Positions 5,443 to 13,607 of a stretch of DNA of 33,587 nt are shown here, piece after piece. Below the pieces are notes generated by a model. The model was not told where the DNA came from. It saw only the letters and a program-made list of their open reading frames with translations, and searched no databases. The position numbers were made by a program, and so were the translations under genes. The DNA lies in NCBI GenBank assembly GCA_015491235.1, contig WFWG01000037.1, forward strand, positions 1 to 33,587, read 5' to 3'. The stretch comes from Ardenticatenaceae bacterium. GTDB taxonomy: Bacteria; Chloroflexota; Anaerolineae; Ardenticatenales; Ardenticatenaceae. How positions within the stretch are numbered: position 1 is the stretch's first letter; each line of letters starts with the position of its first letter.

Positions 5443-5597
5443 TTGGGCACGAATTTTTCAAATAACCACTTCGTACTGTATCACATCACTTGAAGGAGCT
5501 CAATCGTGCTTTCCGGTATAATGAAAGGGCCAAACAGGGCGGGACTGGAGTACCACGGCTGTGGAAGAGGGGGTTGGGTGTTGGTGGGAGCAAACCT

Positions 5598-5625
5598 TTG
5601 CGGGGTTTCTGAGGTGGGCTATAAT
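5598..5625 (+). promoter_or_regulatory. Sigma-70-type promoter for the S41 protease-smpB operon
   Basis: TTGCGG (5598-5603), a 16-bp spacer and a perfect TATAAT (5620-5625) stand about 40 nt before the ATG at 5665. A second TATAAT at 5517-5522 lacks a good -35 box. Confidence 0.6.
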
Positions 5626-5664
5626 GTGCAGCACGACGATTTCAACTGGCCGAGGGAATGGAAC

Positions 5665-6888
5665 ATGGAACGATTAGCCCGTCTTGTCACTGTAGCTCTC
5701 CTGATGCTCTTTTTTACCACTATGGCGTTCCTGGCTGGCTTTGTTGCTCACGCCTACGTGGCTGTGGCTGGTAATCCGCTGCCACTGGCCAAGGGGAAGG
5801 CAGGAGCAAGCAATCCTCTGCGCCCCGACAACTTTGACGTGTTTTGGGAAGCGTGGGACATCTTGAAGGAAGAGTTTTATGGCCCTTTGCCTCAAGGGAA
5901 GGAAGTTACGTATGCGGCCATCCGCGGTGTGCTGGCTGCCTTAGACGACCCCAATACGATTCTCGTCGAGCCGACCGACCGGGAACTCGAAGAGGACCAG
6001 TTCCGAGGCGAGTTCGGTGGCATTGGGGCATACGTGACAATGAACGACCAAGGACAACTTGTCATCGTCTCGCCCATTGATGGAACGCCAGCGGCCAGAG
6101 CCGGCTTACAGCCGGACGACATCATCCTGGAGGTGGACGGCCAACCCATCGCTGGCATGGACTTAAACGAGGCCGTGGCTCTCATCCGTGGTCCTGTGGG
6201 TACAGAGGTCACCCTGACGATTCTCAGGCCCGGACAAGATGAGCCGTTCACCATTACGCTGGTTCGGGAGCGCATTCCTACTCCCACAGTCGAGTACCGC
6301 ATGATTGAGAATACCGACATCGGCTACGTGCGCCTGAGCTTCTTCAGCGAGCGCACCCCTGGTGAGCTTGACAAGGCGCTCGACGAACTCAAACAGGCTG
6401 GCGCTCGGCAGTTGATTCTCGACTTGCGCAATAATCCCGGTGGCCTTTTGGACTCGTCCATTGAGGTGGCCAGTGATTTTCTGTCGCCGGGAACGGTGGT
6501 CGCTTACCAGCAGTTCAAGGACGGGTCGCGCGAGACGCATGTGGCCCGACGGGGTGGAAAGGCTCTGGAAATGCCCCTGGTCGTGTTGGTCAACGACGGG
6601 AGTGCGAGTGCCAGTGAGATCGTGGCCGGCGCCATTCAGGATCACGAGCGCGGCATCCTGGTGGGCCGACAGACATTTGGCAAAGGCACGGTGCAGGTGG
6701 CATATGAGTTGAGCGACGGCGCGAGTCTTCACGTAACTGTGGCCCACTGGTTGACGCCCAGCGGCCGTGACCTGAGTGAGGAAGGTCTGGTGCCGGACAT
6801 CTGGGTGGACTTGGAGGAGGAGGACGTCTTGTTCGTGGACGACGCTCAGTTGCGCCGGGCCATTGAATACCTGCAAAAGGGAGAGTAA
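5665..6888 (+). CDS. S41 family C-terminal processing peptidase (first of two)
   Basis: This 407-residue membrane-anchored serine protease is of the CtpA/Prc type and cleaves proteins near their C-termini outside the membrane. It has one N-terminal hydrophobic anchor (about residues 5-30, LVTVALLMLFFTTMAFLAGF). A PDZ domain lies at ~115-205 (GEFGGIGAYV ... PAARAGLQPDDIILEVDG), followed by the S41 catalytic domain. The Ser/Lys dyad is intact: Ser315 in GSASASEIVAG and Lys340 in FGKGTVQ, 25 residues apart as in the family. The ATG at 5665 was chosen because GAGGGA stands ~8 nt upstream and the anchor begins there, although the frame is open further upstream. Its stop lies 3 nt before the next S41 gene, so the two form an operon. 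Confidence 0.92.
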   Translation: MERLARLVTVALLMLFFTTMAFLAGFVAHAYVAVAGNPLPLAKGKAGASNPLRPDNFDVFWEAWDILKEEFYGPLPQGKEVTYAAIRGVLAALDDPNTILVEPTDRELEEDQFRGEFGGIGAYVTMNDQGQLVIVSPIDGTPAARAGLQPDDIILEVDGQPIAGMDLNEAVALIRGPVGTEVTLTILRPGQDEPFTITLVRERIPTPTVEYRMIENTDIGYVRLSFFSERTPGELDKALDELKQAGARQLILDLRNNPGGLLDSSIEVASDFLSPGTVVAYQQFKDGSRETHVARRGGKALEMPLVVLVNDGSASASEIVAGAIQDHERGILVGRQTFGKGTVQVAYELSDGASLHVTVAHWLTPSGRDLSEEGLVPDIWVDLEEEDVLFVDDAQLRRAIEYLQKGE

Positions 6889-6891
6889 ACG

Positions 6892-8148
6892 GTGACACCG
6901 TCCCGAAGTTCGACATGCCTGTTTCAGGTCTTGTTGGTTGTCTTGCTGGTGGGCCTGCTGATGATTGGCGGGTTCGGCGCTGGATGGGCCAGTTACAACC
7001 AGGTCTTTGACCTTATCGGGGTGGCACCGCCCGCACGGGTCCCCGAGGATAAGCGGGACGACGTGGACCTGACAATTTTCTGGGAGGCTGTCCAGATCCT
7101 TCACAAAAACTATTATGGTGATCCGCCACAAGGGCGAGACCTCACATACGCCGCCATCCGTGGCGTGTTACGAGTCCTCGACGACCCGTTCACGTCTTTT
7201 GTGGAGCCCGAGTTGGCCCGCATCTTCGAGGAAGACATGCAAGGAGAATTCGAGGGCATCGGCGCCACGGTCCGCATGAACGAGGAGGGCGAGTTGGTCA
7301 TTGTGGCCCCCATTGAAGGCAGCCCGGCAGAAGCAGCCGGCTTGCGCCCCGGAGACATCGTTCTCGAGGTTGACGGGAGGCGCATCAAGGGGATGACCTT
7401 GCTGGAAGCGGTCTCGCTGATTCGTGGCCCGAAGGGGACACCAGTGCGCCTGAAAATTCTGCGGGCTGGACAGGAACCGTTCGAGGTCGAAATTGTGCGT
7501 GCTCGCATTGAGATTCCCACTGTCTCGGCTCGCATCATCCAAGAGCCAGGAAAGCCCAAGTTGGGCTACCTCAAGTTGAACGAGTTCAACGCCCTCGCTA
7601 CCCGCCAGGTCAGGGAAGAGTTGCAGGCCTTCCGCGATCAAGGTGTTGAGGGGCTTGTTTTTGACTTGCGCAACAACCCAGGGGGCTTGCTCAGCACGTC
7701 TATCGAAGTGGCGAGCCAGTTCATTGAGGAAGGCCAGGTGGTGTTGATCGAACGAGGAAAGGAAGGTGAGGAAATTCATCGTGCGAGGGGAAAGGGCTTG
7801 TGGCTGGACAAGCCGCTCGTTGTGCTGATAAATGAAGGGACGGCCAGCGCGAGTGAAATCGTGGCAGGTGCAATCCAGGATCACCAGCGGGGCGTGCTGG
7901 TCGGCACGACCACCTTTGGCAAGGGCAGCGTGCAGAGCCCGCGCACCCTTAGCGACGGGTCTAGCCTGCGGGTTACCATTGCCCACTGGTTCACGCCCAA
8001 CGGGCGCCAGATTCACAACCAGGGAATTTCACCGGACATAGTGGTCGAACTGGCACCGGGCGATGGACAGGTTGAACGTGACCCACAGCTTGAGCGGGCT
8101 ATTGAAGTGTTGATCGAGCAGATCACTCGCGGGGGAGGCCGGGAATGA
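6892..8148 (+). CDS. S41 family C-terminal processing peptidase (second of two)
   Basis: This 418-residue paralogue of the preceding protease has the same layout. An N-terminal membrane anchor lies at residues ~8-30 (LFQVLLVVLLVGLLMIGGFGAG), a PDZ domain at ~118-207 (PAEAAGLRPGDIVLEVDG), and then the S41 catalytic core. Ser319 in GTASASEIVAG and Lys344 in FGKGSVQ form the predicted dyad. The start is a GTG at 6892 with AAGGGAGAG just upstream. The stop overlaps the smpB ATG (ATGA). The pair is clearly a tandem duplication, with conserved blocks such as TYAAIRGVL and AGAIQDH in both, but it has diverged strongly elsewhere. The two copies may have different substrates or act as a pair. Confidence 0.92.
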   Translation: MTPSRSSTCLFQVLLVVLLVGLLMIGGFGAGWASYNQVFDLIGVAPPARVPEDKRDDVDLTIFWEAVQILHKNYYGDPPQGRDLTYAAIRGVLRVLDDPFTSFVEPELARIFEEDMQGEFEGIGATVRMNEEGELVIVAPIEGSPAEAAGLRPGDIVLEVDGRRIKGMTLLEAVSLIRGPKGTPVRLKILRAGQEPFEVEIVRARIEIPTVSARIIQEPGKPKLGYLKLNEFNALATRQVREELQAFRDQGVEGLVFDLRNNPGGLLSTSIEVASQFIEEGQVVLIERGKEGEEIHRARGKGLWLDKPLVVLINEGTASASEIVAGAIQDHQRGVLVGTTTFGKGSVQSPRTLSDGSSLRVTIAHWFTPNGRQIHNQGISPDIVVELAPGDGQVERDPQLERAIEVLIEQITRGGGRE

Positions 8149-8616: not shown

Positions 8617-8862
8617 TTACTCGCGGAAGAACTCCACAATCTCCTCGCGTGCGCGTTTAGGAGCCAGCACTTCGATGTAGTTGATACGGTACCACGGGAA
8701 GTAGAATGTGACCGCTTCCCGTTCAAAGAGCGGGACTGGTTTGCCGTCTCGCCGACGCGGGTTGGTAAACACGATAGCGTTATCCGACGGGTCTGGCAAC
8801 TCTTCCATTTCAGCTAAAATTGGTTCTTCGCCGGCTACGTGAACGATAACCGTGTAGGCCAT
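8617..8862 (-). CDS. Small conserved-looking protein of unknown function
   Basis: This 81-residue acidic to neutral protein faces smpB with only 10 nt between the stops. It starts MAYTVIVHVAGEEPILAEME and ends with APKRAREEIVEFFRE. The middle VPLFEREAVTFYFPWYRINYIEVL resembles a small beta-barrel or strand-rich fold. There is no signal peptide, membrane segment or cysteine. GGAGGGG about 8 nt before the ATG at 8862 makes the start convincing, although the frame is open further upstream. I do not recognise the family. The final strand plus a charged helix is reminiscent of small RNA- or protein-binding modules, but this is only an impression. Confidence 0.7.
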   Translation of the reverse strand: MAYTVIVHVAGEEPILAEMEELPDPSDNAIVFTNPRRRDGKPVPLFEREAVTFYFPWYRINYIEVLAPKRAREEIVEFFRE

Positions 8863-8950: not shown

Positions 8951-9008
8951 CACTACTCGACCACAGTGAATTTTGGGTAGCCGACAGGGAAAATTGTCTA
9001 TTACACCG

Positions 9009-9066
9009 AAAAAGTCTAACGATATTTCTTCCAATGGCGCGCAAAGCGTGCAATTGGAAGAAATAT
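9009..9066 (-). terminator. Large hairpin, possible second terminator of the signalling operon
   Basis: The arms ATATTTCTTCCAAT (9022-9035) and ATTGGAAGAAATAT (9053-9066) form a perfect 14-bp stem. An inner GCGCGC/GCGTGC stem has one G-U pair. Reading on the minus strand, a TTTTT run follows 8 nt after the stem; on the plus strand a TTTTT run follows 4 nt after it. It may act in both directions. Confidence 0.5.
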
Positions 9067-9085
9067 TCCATTTTTGGATAATAAA

Positions 9086-9122
9086 CGGCCACATAGATTT
9101 TTGGCGTAAATCTGCGTGGCCG
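9086..9122 (-). terminator. Intrinsic terminator of the kinase/J-VWA/cyclase operon
   Basis: The stem CGGCCAC/GTGGCCG plus AGATTT/AAATCT is separated by a 2x2 internal loop. It begins 4 nt past the stop codon at 9127 on the minus strand and is followed there by TTTATTAT. Position and shape fit a transcription terminator. Confidence 0.6.
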
Positions 9123-9126
9123 AGTA

Positions 9127-10122
9127 TTACTTTCCTTCCAAGAGCCTCATGCGCAGGAGTCCGAGGGAGATGATATCTCCAGGGCGGACAGGGATTGGTT
9201 CATAGGGCCGCAAGCGCTTATCGTTGACGTATGAGCCGTTGGTGCTGCCGAGGTCTTCCAGGTAAAGTTGTCCTTGATGTTCGAAGAGCCGCGCGTGGCG
9301 CCGTGACACGCCTGCCATTAGGCCACCAACTGGTTCCAAGTTCAGGAATCCCCCACCGGGCAAACCTGTGCTCCCGCGGCCGAACACCACCTCGCCTGTG
9401 TTGGGAACCCGAACGGTGGGACCGTATGGCAAAACCTGAAGAAGCCACTTTGCCTCCTCCTCTTGCCTGCTCCCCAAGAAGGTAACCGAAGCACCCACGT
9501 GGAGATCGTGCCCACATGTCTCGCAGAAGAGGGTGTTCGGCAGGTTGTTTGTCCCGCAGGCCGGACACTTGGTTTGCAGGGGGCCTGCAACGGACGAAAC
9601 TGACACGAAAGGAGGCGTTTCACGCACAAGCAGGTCCGGGTGGCGGAGGAGGTACACGTGCTGAACTTCACTCACGCCGCGCAACGGTTGGTGACCCAGA
9701 TCAACGAGGCTCGCTCCCGTTGGCAGGGAGCAGACTTTCAGCACACGCTCTGTCAACACAATTTCTCCGCCGCGACAGATGGAGAGGAGGCGAGCCGTGG
9801 TGTTGACGTCAGGCCCAAAGTAGTCATTGCCCATGCGGCGGGCTTGGCCGGCGTGAAGCACGACGCGCACCAGAAGCGGGCCAACTATTCCCCAATCCTC
9901 CTGTTGAATGCGCCGCTGAACTTCCACGCTGTACTCAAGCGCATCGCCGTCTTCAAAGATGGCAAAGATACCATCTCCCGTGTGCTTGACCATCACGCCA
10001 CCGTATTGCTCCAGAGCCTCCTGCAAAATGGTGTCGTGACGGTTCAGCACTTTCCACATTGAATCCGTATACTGTTCCCACAGCGGAGTCGAATTCTCGA
10101 TATCCGTGAATAGAAAGATCAT
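9127..10122 (-). CDS. Class III nucleotidyl cyclase-zinc ribbon-FHA fusion protein
   Basis: This 331-residue soluble protein starts directly with a class III adenylate/guanylate cyclase domain (residues ~1-165). All expected catalytic residues are present. Metal-binding Asp7 is in FTDIENST and Asp50 in KHTGDG. Adenine-selecting Lys46 and Asp100 (NDYFG) and the transition-state residues Asn107 and Arg111 (VNTTARL) are spaced as in known mycobacterial cyclases, so ATP is the likely substrate. A double-CxxC zinc ribbon (CPACG ... CETCG, ~185-205) follows. A C-terminal FHA domain (~237-325) carries FGRGSTG, SRRHARL and the phosphothreonine-binding motif LEDLGSTNGSYVN. It is the last gene of an operon with a kinase and a J-VWA protein, which suggests that phosphorylation by the kinase is read by the FHA domain. 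Confidence 0.9.
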   Translation of the reverse strand: MIFLFTDIENSTPLWEQYTDSMWKVLNRHDTILQEALEQYGGVMVKHTGDGIFAIFEDGDALEYSVEVQRRIQQEDWGIVGPLLVRVVLHAGQARRMGNDYFGPDVNTTARLLSICRGGEIVLTERVLKVCSLPTGASLVDLGHQPLRGVSEVQHVYLLRHPDLLVRETPPFVSVSSVAGPLQTKCPACGTNNLPNTLFCETCGHDLHVGASVTFLGSRQEEEAKWLLQVLPYGPTVRVPNTGEVVFGRGSTGLPGGGFLNLEPVGGLMAGVSRRHARLFEHQGQLYLEDLGSTNGSYVNDKRLRPYEPIPVRPGDIISLGLLRMRLLEGK

Positions 10123-10136
10123 TCCTCACACAGCTC

Positions 10137-11636
10137 CTATTGAGCTCCGTTCCAGTCAGGTGCTGGTAAGGAGAGTTGTCGGGTGCCGTATTTGATGCGC
10201 TTGCTCCCTTCCGAGGAAAGCGCGCCAGTCCGACGGAGGAGGGCCAATTCCCGCTTTGTGAGGGCGGCCAGGGTGGGTTCGCCAATCTCGAGAAATCGTG
10301 TGGCCAGGTGGGAAAGTTGAAGTTCTGCTTCCACACGGTTCCCCTTTTCCACCGCTTCCCAAGCGCGTTGCTGGAGGCGTAAGGCAGCTACACGTTCAGC
10401 CGCGCCAATAATCTCATCCGGGAATTCGAGTTCCTCCGCCTTGATGTCGCGTATCCCAACGACAAGGATTCTGGTTTGCGCAGTAAAAAGTTGCTTTTTC
10501 AGAAATTTCGTCTCCGCTGTAAGGTGCGCGGCAATAATAGCGCGCTGGTGGGCAGGTGGAGTGACACCAAACTCGATCAGGACCTGAACAGGCAGGCCCT
10601 TGAGCAACTGGCCCAGCTTAATGGACCCCTCGGCCGTCGGTGTCAGGCGCTGAAGGGCAGGCATGACCTGATGGACAGCCAGCAGTTCGGCGTGGGGTTG
10701 CAGGGCTATCGAGAGGCATGTTTCCTGCGTTACCGTTCGCCGCAGAGTCTCCAAGCGTTTCTCGAAGGCGGTGACGGCATCCTGAGGGTCGGCGATGTGC
10801 AATGTTTCGCCGTTAGAGCGCCGGGCCATCTCGTCGAGCAGGTGGTCGTTCCAGTCAGCGCCCAAGCCGAAGAGCGTCAGGCCAATTTGCTCGCGGGCAA
10901 TTTTCTCGGCCAATTCCAGGCACTGGGCCTCGTCTCCGTAGGTCTGTCCGTCTGTAAGGAAAATAATGTGCGTGACGACGCGCCGTGAGTGGCCGCGCAG
11001 AGCTTCCCGCAAGCCCACTTCCAGGCCGGACGAGATTTCTGTGCCGCCACTGGCCGTAATGCTGTTGATGGCGCTCAGGACCACTTCAGGTTGTCGGTAC
11101 GGGCCAGCCGGCAGGACGACTTGGGCCCTGTCGTTGAACGTAACAATGCCCAAGCGGTCCTGAGGGGTGAGCCGCTCGCTGATGAGGCGCACGGCTTTCT
11201 GAGCATGATAGAGGCGTTCGCCACGCATTGAACTGCTGCGGTCGAGCACCACGATGAGGTTGAGGGGCAGAGCAGGCGAAGATTGTGCTCCTGGCTCTGT
11301 CACTTCCAGCTCAACCAGCGCGTAGAGCCGCTGATGCCCCACACGGCGCCGCAACGTCCGGGGGCCTGGCTTCACAATCACCCGCAAGAGCCCGGCGTCG
11401 GGCGTTTGCTGCGCCAGCCAAGCGTCGTATTTAGCCCGCAATTTGGGGTCGCTCAGCACGTCGTACGCTTCGCGCAGGCGCACGAATTGCTGGTGAGCTT
11501 CTGGCGAGGGGTTGACGTCAGGGTGAAAAATGCGCGTGAGCAGGCGATACTGGGTGCGCAGGGTTTCTTCGTCCGCCGTGGGATCAACGCCCAGGCGGTC
11601 GTAGTAGTCCACCTCGAAGTGGTATTTTGAGCTCAT
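10137..11636 (-). CDS. J-domain-VWA fusion protein
   Basis: This 499-residue protein has an N-terminal J domain (residues ~9-75). It carries the Hsp70-stimulating HPD triad at 38-40 (RIFHPDVN) and the final LRAKYDAWL helix. A von Willebrand A domain at ~125-300 has an intact metal site: Asp132-x-Ser134-x-Ser136 in VVLDRSSSM, the threonine in SGGTEISSG, and the aspartate in IIFLTDGQT. The C-terminal ~180 residues resemble the beta-rich and helical tail found after VWA domains in bacterial Mg-chelatase/inter-alpha-inhibitor-like proteins. No signal peptide or membrane segment is seen, so it should be cytoplasmic. The start has AAGGAG ~10 nt upstream. It lies 18 nt after the kinase and 14 nt before the cyclase-FHA gene. 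The J-VWA fusion is unusual; it may bring DnaK to a metal-dependent protein assembly. Confidence 0.88.
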   Translation of the reverse strand: MSSKYHFEVDYYDRLGVDPTADEETLRTQYRLLTRIFHPDVNPSPEAHQQFVRLREAYDVLSDPKLRAKYDAWLAQQTPDAGLLRVIVKPGPRTLRRRVGHQRLYALVELEVTEPGAQSSPALPLNLIVVLDRSSSMRGERLYHAQKAVRLISERLTPQDRLGIVTFNDRAQVVLPAGPYRQPEVVLSAINSITASGGTEISSGLEVGLREALRGHSRRVVTHIIFLTDGQTYGDEAQCLELAEKIAREQIGLTLFGLGADWNDHLLDEMARRSNGETLHIADPQDAVTAFEKRLETLRRTVTQETCLSIALQPHAELLAVHQVMPALQRLTPTAEGSIKLGQLLKGLPVQVLIEFGVTPPAHQRAIIAAHLTAETKFLKKQLFTAQTRILVVGIRDIKAEELEFPDEIIGAAERVAALRLQQRAWEAVEKGNRVEAELQLSHLATRFLEIGEPTLAALTKRELALLRRTGALSSEGSKRIKYGTRQLSLPAPDWNGAQ

Positions 11637-11654
11637 GGTCTCATTACTCCTTCC

Positions 11655-13607
11655 TCATCGGTCCAGCCCTTCGGCTTGCAAAGCGTACACGTGATGGTCA
11701 AGGGAGCCGAAGTACACCTTCCCATGAGCCGTCCGGGGCGATCCTGGAATGGGTCCGCCCGTTCGGTATCGCCAGACGAGCTTGCCCCTTTTTGCGTCGA
11801 GGCAGTACATGTGCCCGTCTACGCTGCCGCAGTAGACGAATCCGTTTTCCACCCACGGTGAGGAGGTGACTTGGTGATCGGTTTTGTACTTCCAGACCAG
11901 TTCACCCCACTCAGCATTGAGGCAATAGATGTGTCCGTCCACCGAGCCAATGTAAACGTATTTCTCATATACAAAGGGTGACGAAACGATGCGGTCGGTC
12001 GTGCGAAAGCGCCAGATGACCCAGCCAGAGTTGACGTCAAAGGCGTATACCGTCCAGTCCATTGAGCCGCAGATTACTCGATCTTCGTAAACGCTGGGCG
12101 AAGAGATCACAGCGCCGTTTGTCCTGGCGCGCCAGCGCACTTCACCTGTTGCCAGGTCCAAGGCATAGACCAAGCCGTCCTCCGCGCCAATGTAGAGCAG
12201 GCGGTCGAAGAAGCAGGCCGACGAGCGCACGGGAGCGTGAGTGGCGTGGCGCCAGATCCCTGTGCCTCGCCGAGCGTCAATAGCGTAAATGTGACCGTCG
12301 TCGGACCCAATGAAGATAAAGTCTCCGTGTACGCGAGGAGAGGATCGGATCTTCCCCTTCGTTGCAAATGTCCACTCCAGCCGACCACTCGTCCGATTGA
12401 TGCCATACACGCGGTAATCTTCCGAACCGACGATCACAAGATGTTTCCAGGTTGTCGGAGTTCCGGGGATGCCCCCTTCGGTCGGGTATTTCCAGATGAA
12501 TTGGCCGGTGTTCGCGTCCAAACAGTACAGGTTATGATCGTAGCAGCCAATGTAGAGGCGATCCCCTTCAATGCACGGGGTGGAACGCACCTCCTCTTCA
12601 CACTTGAACGTCCAAACGGGCTCGATGCCACTTTGAGTATCCCGGGGAACGGCAGAGTGGCCTGGCTTGCGAAGCGTTGGCGGGGCACTGCCGTGAAGTC
12701 CGGCTGTGCGTTGAATCAGCCGCGTAATAGGCCGTGTGGGAGTGGCTTCCGCTTGTAAGGAGGGGAGGAGCGCTTCCAGCGCTTTGCGCAATTCGGCAGC
12801 ACTCTCCCAGCGCTCGTCGGGGTCCTCCGCCAGCGCCTTCATGATGACCTGTTCCAGTTCGGGCGGCACGGCCGGGTTGTAGTGGCGAATGGGGCGCGAG
12901 GCGAAGCTGAACGGTCGAAACTCCCGGGGGTCGGTGTTTGTCAACAGGTGGTGCAGCGTGGCCCCAAGGGCGTAGATGTCCACTTTAGGTGTGGCCATCC
13001 CCTCGTACTGCTCAGGGGAGGCATATCCTTCGGTGCCGACCATAGTAGCCCGTTCGGCTTCTTGAAAGTGCTTGGCAATTCCAAAGTCAACGAGTACAAG
13101 GCGACCGTCGGGGCGCAACATGATGTTACTGGGCTTCAGGTCCCGGAAGACAATAGGGGGCGTCTGGTTGTGGAGGTATTCCAACACGTCGCAGAGCTGA
13201 ATGCCCCAGTCTACGGCCTGGAGTGGCGTGATGGGCCTGGCGCGCTGGGCAATGTATTTGGCCAAGTCTTGTCCTTCCACATACTCGAGGACGACATAAT
13301 GGCGATCATTTTCGTTGAAGTAGTCGAAGATTTTGGGAATGGCCGGGTGGTTGAGGCTGGCGAGGATATTGGCCTCACGCTCAAAATTCTCCACCGCCTG
13401 GCGGCGGGCTGTCGGATCCACAAGTGCGTTGAACATCTCTTTGACGGCACAGCGCCGTGGGTGAGCCCGGAAGCGACGGTCGCGGGCACTGTAAACCGCC
13501 CCCATGCCGCCGATGCCCAAAATGCCCTCAATGACGTACCGGCCAGCCAGCACAGTGCCGGGCTCAAGCGTGCTGGGTGTGGACCTCGATACTGGTTGTG
13601 TTTTCAT
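11655..13607 (-). CDS. Ser/Thr protein kinase with C-terminal PQQ-like propeller
   Basis: This 650-residue protein carries a Hanks-type kinase domain (~24-290). It has a glycine loop GIGGMG (31-36), catalytic Lys56 in CAVKE, FRDLKPSN (Phe154-Arg155-Asp156 in place of HRD), DFG at 174-176, and the activation-loop end GTEGYASPEQ. A short linker leads to a PQQ-type beta-propeller (~335-650) built of repeats such as LYIGCYDHNLYCLDANTG and VYCGSVDGHMYCLDAKRG. Unlike most PknB-type kinases there is no membrane helix between the two, so the sensor is probably cytoplasmic. The ATG at 13607 (MKTQPVSRS) is preferred over an upstream in-frame start; it follows GCGGGG. It heads the three-gene operon and has its own promoter at 13657-13685. 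Confidence 0.92.
   Translation of the reverse strand: MKTQPVSRSTPSTLEPGTVLAGRYVIEGILGIGGMGAVYSARDRRFRAHPRRCAVKEMFNALVDPTARRQAVENFEREANILASLNHPAIPKIFDYFNENDRHYVVLEYVEGQDLAKYIAQRARPITPLQAVDWGIQLCDVLEYLHNQTPPIVFRDLKPSNIMLRPDGRLVLVDFGIAKHFQEAERATMVGTEGYASPEQYEGMATPKVDIYALGATLHHLLTNTDPREFRPFSFASRPIRHYNPAVPPELEQVIMKALAEDPDERWESAAELRKALEALLPSLQAEATPTRPITRLIQRTAGLHGSAPPTLRKPGHSAVPRDTQSGIEPVWTFKCEEEVRSTPCIEGDRLYIGCYDHNLYCLDANTGQFIWKYPTEGGIPGTPTTWKHLVIVGSEDYRVYGINRTSGRLEWTFATKGKIRSSPRVHGDFIFIGSDDGHIYAIDARRGTGIWRHATHAPVRSSACFFDRLLYIGAEDGLVYALDLATGEVRWRARTNGAVISSPSVYEDRVICGSMDWTVYAFDVNSGWVIWRFRTTDRIVSSPFVYEKYVYIGSVDGHIYCLNAEWGELVWKYKTDHQVTSSPWVENGFVYCGSVDGHMYCLDAKRGKLVWRYRTGGPIPGSPRTAHGKVYFGSLDHHVYALQAEGLDR

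Follow-up and report, generated by a model that had tools for sequence, protein, structure and literature searches.

An operon of probable ArnA/ArnB type in Chloroflexota, with a cyclase-bearing FHA protein in one genus

The DNA analyzed here, which we call the window, is a stretch of 33,587 nucleotides from an Ardenticatenaceae bacterium (assembly GCA_015491235.1, contig WFWG01000037.1), and it carries an operon encoding a Ser/Thr kinase fused to a PQQ-type β-propeller (kinase-PQQ), a J domain-vWA protein (J-vWA), and a reader protein in which a cyclase, a zinc ribbon, and an FHA domain are joined. Because sequence, domain order, and fold all relate the J-vWA protein to archaeal ArnB and the zinc ribbon-FHA protein to ArnA (8s05), we conclude with considerable confidence that the operon encodes a bacterial phospho-switch of the ArnA/ArnB type. 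Our fuller interpretation, which we favor with less assurance, is that the kinase marks Thr485 of J-vWA, that the FHA domain docks on this mark, and that cyclase control has been added in the window's genus. It is based on gene order, domains, conservation, the fold match, an invariant motif and its erosion in one clade, and purifying selection on the cyclase, all of which are direct observations. The features concerned are as follows.

11655-13607, minus strand: kinase-PQQ, from its open reading frame (ORF) and Pfam; Ser/Thr kinase at residues ~24-268, propeller at ~330-650
10137-11636, minus strand: J-vWA, probably ArnB-type, from ORF, Pfam, profile, and AlphaFold2 (AF2) model; J domain at residues 10-71, split β-sandwich around the vWA domain and its metal ion-dependent adhesion site (MIDAS) at 126-282, helix bundle at 407-486
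10173-10184, minus strand: codons of T485-R-x-L488, placed by codon numbering; predicted phospho-Thr for FHA docking
9127-10122, minus strand: cyclase-zinc ribbon-FHA, probably an ArnA-type reader; cyclase at residues 1-160, CxxC-CxxC at 185-204, FHA at ~219-330

The original prediction, made from the sequence alone, described three adjoining fused genes that lack membrane segments, and the minus-strand ORFs are indeed present, with intergenic gaps of 18 and 14 bp. Pfam supports every domain that it named, the zinc ribbon below the curated cut-off, and the best 19-residue Kyte-Doolittle means of kinase-PQQ, J-vWA, and the reader (1.04, 1.11, and 1.23) indicate no membrane segment. Its inventory overlooked a small conserved gene at 8617-8862 (S80) and the absence of a PP2C phosphatase, its interpretation did not touch on the kinship with ArnA/ArnB or on the candidate phospho-site, and its framing of the genes as a trio has to be replaced, as the widespread unit in Anaerolineae consists of kinase-PQQ, PP2C, J-vWA, zinc ribbon-FHA, S80, and often an OmpR-type regulator.

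The J-vWA protein (P0002) matches the Pfam families DnaJ (3.9e-19) and VWA (3.8e-22), its MIDAS residues are intact (D132/S134/S136/T199/D229), and the HPD motif of the J domain (H38, P39, D40) is kept in 94-97% of the aligned homologues that have the domain. When a profile of vWA proteins without the J domain (A2, 16 rows) was searched against the sequences of the PDB, the top match was ArnB (8s05_A, E 2.6e-22), which spanned the vWA domain, the β-sandwich, and the helix bundle, while the remaining 12 matches at 1e-12 covered the vWA part or slightly beyond. In the AF2 model of J-vWA (predicted local distance difference test, pLDDT, 92.2; predicted template modeling score 0.89), residues 82-491 superpose on 8s05_B (Z 31.2, root-mean-square deviation 4.1, 372 aligned residues) and residues 82-489 on ArnE (5a8j, Z 26.6). 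The only structure to outscore 8s05_B is 4fx5, an actinobacterial vWA protein from Catenulispora (Z 37.4, residues 81-491), which has the same tripartite fold, as do stand-alone paralogues in Chloroflexota. The FHA part of the reader (P0001) in turn matches 8s05_C (7.9e-9) and ArnA (5a8i, 1.3e-7). Hence the two components of an ArnA-ArnB-type pair appear to be present, namely a vWA protein with a split β-sandwich and a C-terminal helix bundle, according to profile and model, and an adjoining zinc ribbon-FHA protein, which has the four Cys residues and the FHA motifs and is found at 55 of 56 loci.

In the Sulfolobus system, Hanks-type kinases act on the ArnB bundle, which is phosphorylated by ArnC and ArnD, and ArnA binds via its FHA domain, its zinc finger providing a loose contact with ArnB prior to phosphorylation (PMC6509490, PMC12852372). 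The ArnAB authors already noted the ArnB fold in bacteria, in proteins mostly lacking a link to multi-phosphorylation (PMC12852372). The likeness to ArnA-ArnB (8s05, 5a8i, 5a8j) therefore lies in a zinc finger or zinc ribbon-FHA reader encoded beside a vWA protein with split β-sandwich, MIDAS, and bundle. In contrast to the archaeal pair, kinase-PQQ, together with PP2C in relatives, is part of the same operon, as is the S80 gene; the scaffold has a J domain, the reader carries a cyclase in the window's genus, a single invariant T-R-x-L takes the place of the several Thr sites of ArnB, and the phosphatase is PP2C in the bacterial relatives rather than PP2A. As the host is bacterial, regulation of the archaellum is not expected to be the role of the operon.

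A scan of bacterial genomes for J-vWA gave 80 loci, almost all in Chloroflexota, and 61 were scored as having both J and vWA domains. This 61/19 split is off by at least one, because L029, first scored as J-less, has a J domain that lacks a standard start codon. The loci L023 and L024, although counted separately, both belong to G001 (the second genome of the window's genus with the full reader), where they are on different contigs. The neighbor counts exclude rows whose flank was too short, hence their varying totals. Upstream of J-vWA, kinase-PQQ was found at 45/45 loci and PP2C, identified by Pfam, at 44/45; downstream, FHA and S80 were each found at 55/56, an OmpR-type regulator at 38/46, and Hsp20 at 18/46 (both by Pfam). 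With kinase-PQQ always upstream and FHA almost always downstream, the gene association is not due to chance. The genes are also closely packed, with median gaps, measured from mechanically assigned ORF starts, of 14 bp for kinase-PP2C, 2 bp for PP2C-vWA, 19 bp for FHA-S80, and 2 bp for S80-regulator. Ordinarily, the operon comprises six genes and its reader lacks a cyclase. A J-less form in the order kinase-PQQ, PP2C, vWA, FHA, S80 occurs elsewhere in Chloroflexota (7 of 20 regions, and one more with J). Among 41 near relatives, 22 had a best match to J-vWA at E ≤1e-50, and in three genomes of the same family and order (G004, G005, and G006) kinase-PQQ, J-vWA, zinc ribbon-FHA, and S80 are present and PP2C, the regulator, and the cyclase are not; both PP2C and the OmpR regulator are absent from the operon in the window's order. 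The original prediction had made co-occurrence in relatives its own check, and the kinase, J-vWA, and FHA genes pass it, but the conserved set does not include the cyclase. The chaperone link that it drew comes down to the J domain, which suggests recruitment of DnaK, and to the Hsp20 neighbors downstream in some relatives, which suggest a role in proteostasis. An apparent natural fusion of J-vWA with FHA at L082 was rejected, as a run of N joins the two frames.

The new element in this analysis is an invariant T-R-x-L at the C-terminus of J-vWA that is eroded in a stand-alone clade retaining the surrounding fold, and we think it probable, judging from the alignment, that its Thr485 is the phospho-acceptor on which the FHA domain docks. 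Outside the stand-alone clade, 142 aligned rows, which hold some genomes twice, have T in 140, R in 137 (K in 4), and L in 139. The rows that deviate at T or L are L082, whose tail is a masked run in which the T aligns by chance, L087, which is at a contig end, and the paralogue L183. These counts are cleaner than one of 96/96 for the T, as that includes the masked L082, and a count by the regular expression T[RK].L was rejected in favor of the aligned column since it also matches an internal helix (ATRLL). When the 152 sequences were clustered at 70% identity to 81 clusters, the aligned T was present in 67/67 of those that are FHA-linked, defined as having a same-strand FHA gene no more than 2.5 kb away, in 8/9 with only a kinase or PP2C nearby, and in 2/5 with neither. 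In the stand-alone paralogues, which form one clade with support 100/100 (7 of the 10 rows in the tree), L488 is replaced by T in 10/10 and T485 is altered in 8/10. Some members have possible partners nearby: L167, L168, and L169 are beside kinase/PP2C-type or other vWA genes, and a divergent FHA-kinase gene adjoins L164. We also observed that the genomes with stand-alone ArnB-fold paralogues hold several vWA copies each, and that the tails of L164-L166, L170, L171, L195, and L197 read K-T-V-R-L-S/T-D after the place of T-R-x-L.

The comparison with ArnB is consistent with such a mark. Its bundle stretch reads T-R-T-V, T-R-R-M, and twice T-T-R-R-I, which in the numbering of the paper hold T322, T335, T343/T344, and T353/T354. 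According to that paper, ArnC phosphorylates T322, T335, and T353, whereas T343 was unphosphorylated in the study, and the T353A/T354A exchange weakens early ArnA binding (PMC12852372). T-R-x-hydrophobic thus looks like a phospho-motif common to ArnB and J-vWA.

The reader matches the Pfam families Guanylate_cyc (1.9e-10), FHA (2.4e-16), and Zn_Ribbon_1 (4e-05, under the curated cut-off, with the four Cys present). The six cyclase residues claimed beforehand can all be read in P0001 (D7, K46, D50, D100, N107, and R111) and are all retained in G001, and the FHA motifs claimed with them are present as SRRH (SxxH) and STNGSYVN. Going by the catalytic roles that we take these six residues to have, the domain has the two metal-binding Asp, the Lys/Asp base pair, and the Asn/Arg transition-state pair of a class III cyclase, and the Lys/Asp pair suggests ATP as the substrate. 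It matches the cyclase Ma1120 (4wp9, E 3.9e-18), a likeness confined to the class III catalytic domain, as the matched Ma1120 chains (171-210 residues) have neither zinc ribbon nor FHA. Full-length cyclase-zinc ribbon-FHA proteins occur in 2 of the 41 relatives and in 2 of 396 genomes of the class, both belonging to the window's genus, and the closest relatives of the cyclase in the class are domains of ~1000-residue proteins with up to 47% identity. The reader of the window's genus has gained a cyclase at its N-terminal side. Between the window and G001, the ratio of nonsynonymous to synonymous substitution rates (dN/dS) is 0.078 for the cyclase, 0.097 for FHA, 0.093 for kinase-PQQ, 0.155 for the compared part of J-vWA, and 0.041 for S80, values that are rough since dS (1.3-2.3) is near saturation. 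Because of its ratio, we regard the cyclase as kept under purifying selection and not decaying. The genome of the window has seven places with class III cyclases, that of the operon included, and nine with cyclic nucleotide-binding domains. G001 has a further cyclase-domain gene of large size (L226, 6378-9002) ~4.4 kb downstream of the operon. We found no description of a cyclase-FHA fusion, or of a bacterial kinase-PP2C-vWA-FHA operon, in the open-access literature, subscription papers being mostly outside the search.

Several observations, beginning with the near-saturated dS, weigh against the fuller interpretation. In the model T485 ends the last helix (475-486, block pLDDT 90), and because that helix is confidently predicted, the T, R, and L of the motif may have a structural role. 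T-R-x-L would then be a clasp that holds the bundle to the vWA domain, and FHA would read another phospho-Thr, from kinase autophosphorylation or at several bundle sites. The ArnB work points the same way in that binding is redundant over several Thr, none essential singly, where J-vWA has one invariant site, and T371-T375 are buried at the interface of bundle and vWA (PMC12852372). Moreover, the stand-alone clade is a single evolutionary event, so the erosion of the motif is suggestive rather than proof, and two of its members retain the T yet lose the L. Nevertheless, we consider a structural clasp unlikely, as this clade keeps the bundle core in 10/10 (G432, L441, G452, E453, L456, A457, and K479) yet loses the motif, and families f55 and f73 keep T-R-x-L despite a remodeled rest of the bundle. 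The remaining points concern the gene set. The full J-vWA is absent from G002, of the same genus and 86% complete, and from G003, of the same family and 83% complete, and the operon in the window's genus has no PP2C, the only PP2C_2 match of the genome being located elsewhere.

The cyclase might also be a passenger on a reader that works as it does in relatives, its activity being constitutive or regulated in some other way. The relatives do manage without a cyclase and the full fusion is known from two genomes only, but since both genomes retain all six catalytic residues and the dN/dS of the cyclase does not exceed that of FHA, we doubt that this is so. A further system built from a kinase, a PP2C phosphatase, vWA, and FHA is the threonine phosphorylation pathway PpkA/PppA/Fha of type VI secretion; in it the vWA is carried on the kinase, and we know of no ArnB-type bundle there. 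That the operon is a TerY-P or type VI secretion-type kinase-phosphatase-vWA(-FHA) module serving stress, conflict, or secretion seems most improbable, for although many PADLOC kinase models hit its kinase domain and one such system is described as having linked kinase, PP2C, and vWA genes (PMC7159879), PADLOC matches none of the other three proteins, the flanking genes are of another kind, and the bundle architecture follows ArnB. A defense system was rejected on the same PADLOC result, and no secretion genes were seen among the annotated window flanks, which comprise some of the flanking genes, the relatives not having been scanned for type VI secretion or ter genes. These flanks are smpB and two S41 peptidases on one side and recX and rny on the other, and are housekeeping-like. 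The tandem S41/PDZ peptidase genes (5506-8145) adjoin smpB, and the same genes are found beside the operon in G001.

The kinase-PQQ protein (P0003) matches the Pfam families Pkinase (5.5e-42) and PQQ_2/β-propeller (1.3e-54). Its propeller has eight repeats of the PQQ/BamB type (residues 351-631), so the PQQ label given earlier stands for the repeats and does not imply the PQQ cofactor. The catalytic loop has FRD in place of HRD, as in 72 of 81 homologues, and DFG is present. It resembles the AfsK-type kinases (NF053615, 4.2e-66) in having C-terminal PQQ repeats, but its 224 bits are far under the equivalog cut-off of 1300. Two further features lie downstream of the reader.

8617-8862, minus strand: S80, a β-barrel protein of ~81 residues; conserved gene downstream of FHA
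8990-9125, strand unassigned: dispersed repeat of 136 bp with palindromic core, between FHA and S80

In an alignment of 54 S80 members H8, P56, E64, F78, and R80 are invariant; none of them matches Pfam or NCBIfam at E 0.01, and a search of PDB sequences gave no match at E 1. The model is a five-stranded barrel (pLDDT 86.9) with a weak likeness to LSm/Sm folds (best Foldseek E 0.047; VIA Z up to 8.2, with mostly LSm/Sm rows at 6-7). S80 matches occur in 60 of 201 sampled Chloroflexota genomes. At L120 and L121, S80 directly follows kinase-PQQ and a vWA or FHA gene was not detected, hinting that S80 may work with the kinase. Distant homologues away from the operon (L126-L128, L132, and L133) have an acidic tail ending D-F/L-L-R-R-V/I-R. 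The FHA-S80 spacing is 264 bp in the window, 136 bp of which is the repeat, versus only ~40 bp in G001. The repeat gave 39 match rows at ~21 places in its own genome and looks like a REP/MITE-type family.

We now put forward a hypothetical mechanism for the ArnA/ArnB-type switch. The cytoplasmic kinase-PQQ, with a propeller that is probably the sensor of a ligand or partner, would phosphorylate T485-R-x-L488 at the C-terminus of J-vWA. The zinc ribbon of the reader may hold J-vWA loosely beforehand, with the FHA domain docking tightly once Thr485 is phosphorylated, and the J domain may let the scaffold recruit DnaK. In most relatives the PP2C of the same operon would erase the mark and reset the switch, and the OmpR regulator may carry the output. 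In the window's genus, docking would instead gather the cyclase domains on the scaffold, or keep them apart, so that phosphorylation is converted to a cAMP-type signal. As to the kinase-to-cAMP link proposed originally, the relay from kinase via vWA to FHA is suggested by the relatives and by ArnA-ArnB, but the cyclase is outside the conserved system, and we hold its control by docking to be conceivable, at somewhat less than even chances. More tentative still is the generalization to a modular Chloroflexota switch, in which an invariant T-R-x-L mark is combined with an exchangeable output, mostly OmpR and, in the window's genus, the reader-fused cyclase.

The known role of ArnAB is that of an archaeal motility switch. 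Across Chloroflexota, one operon encodes the reader together with the scaffold, the kinase, and, in relatives, PP2C. If our interpretation is right, the operon would provide a simple bacterial model of FHA-vWA switching with a concrete residue, and the cyclase fusion a ready enzymatic read-out of the switch. In the window's genus, Ser/Thr phosphorylation would then be connected directly to a cyclic nucleotide.

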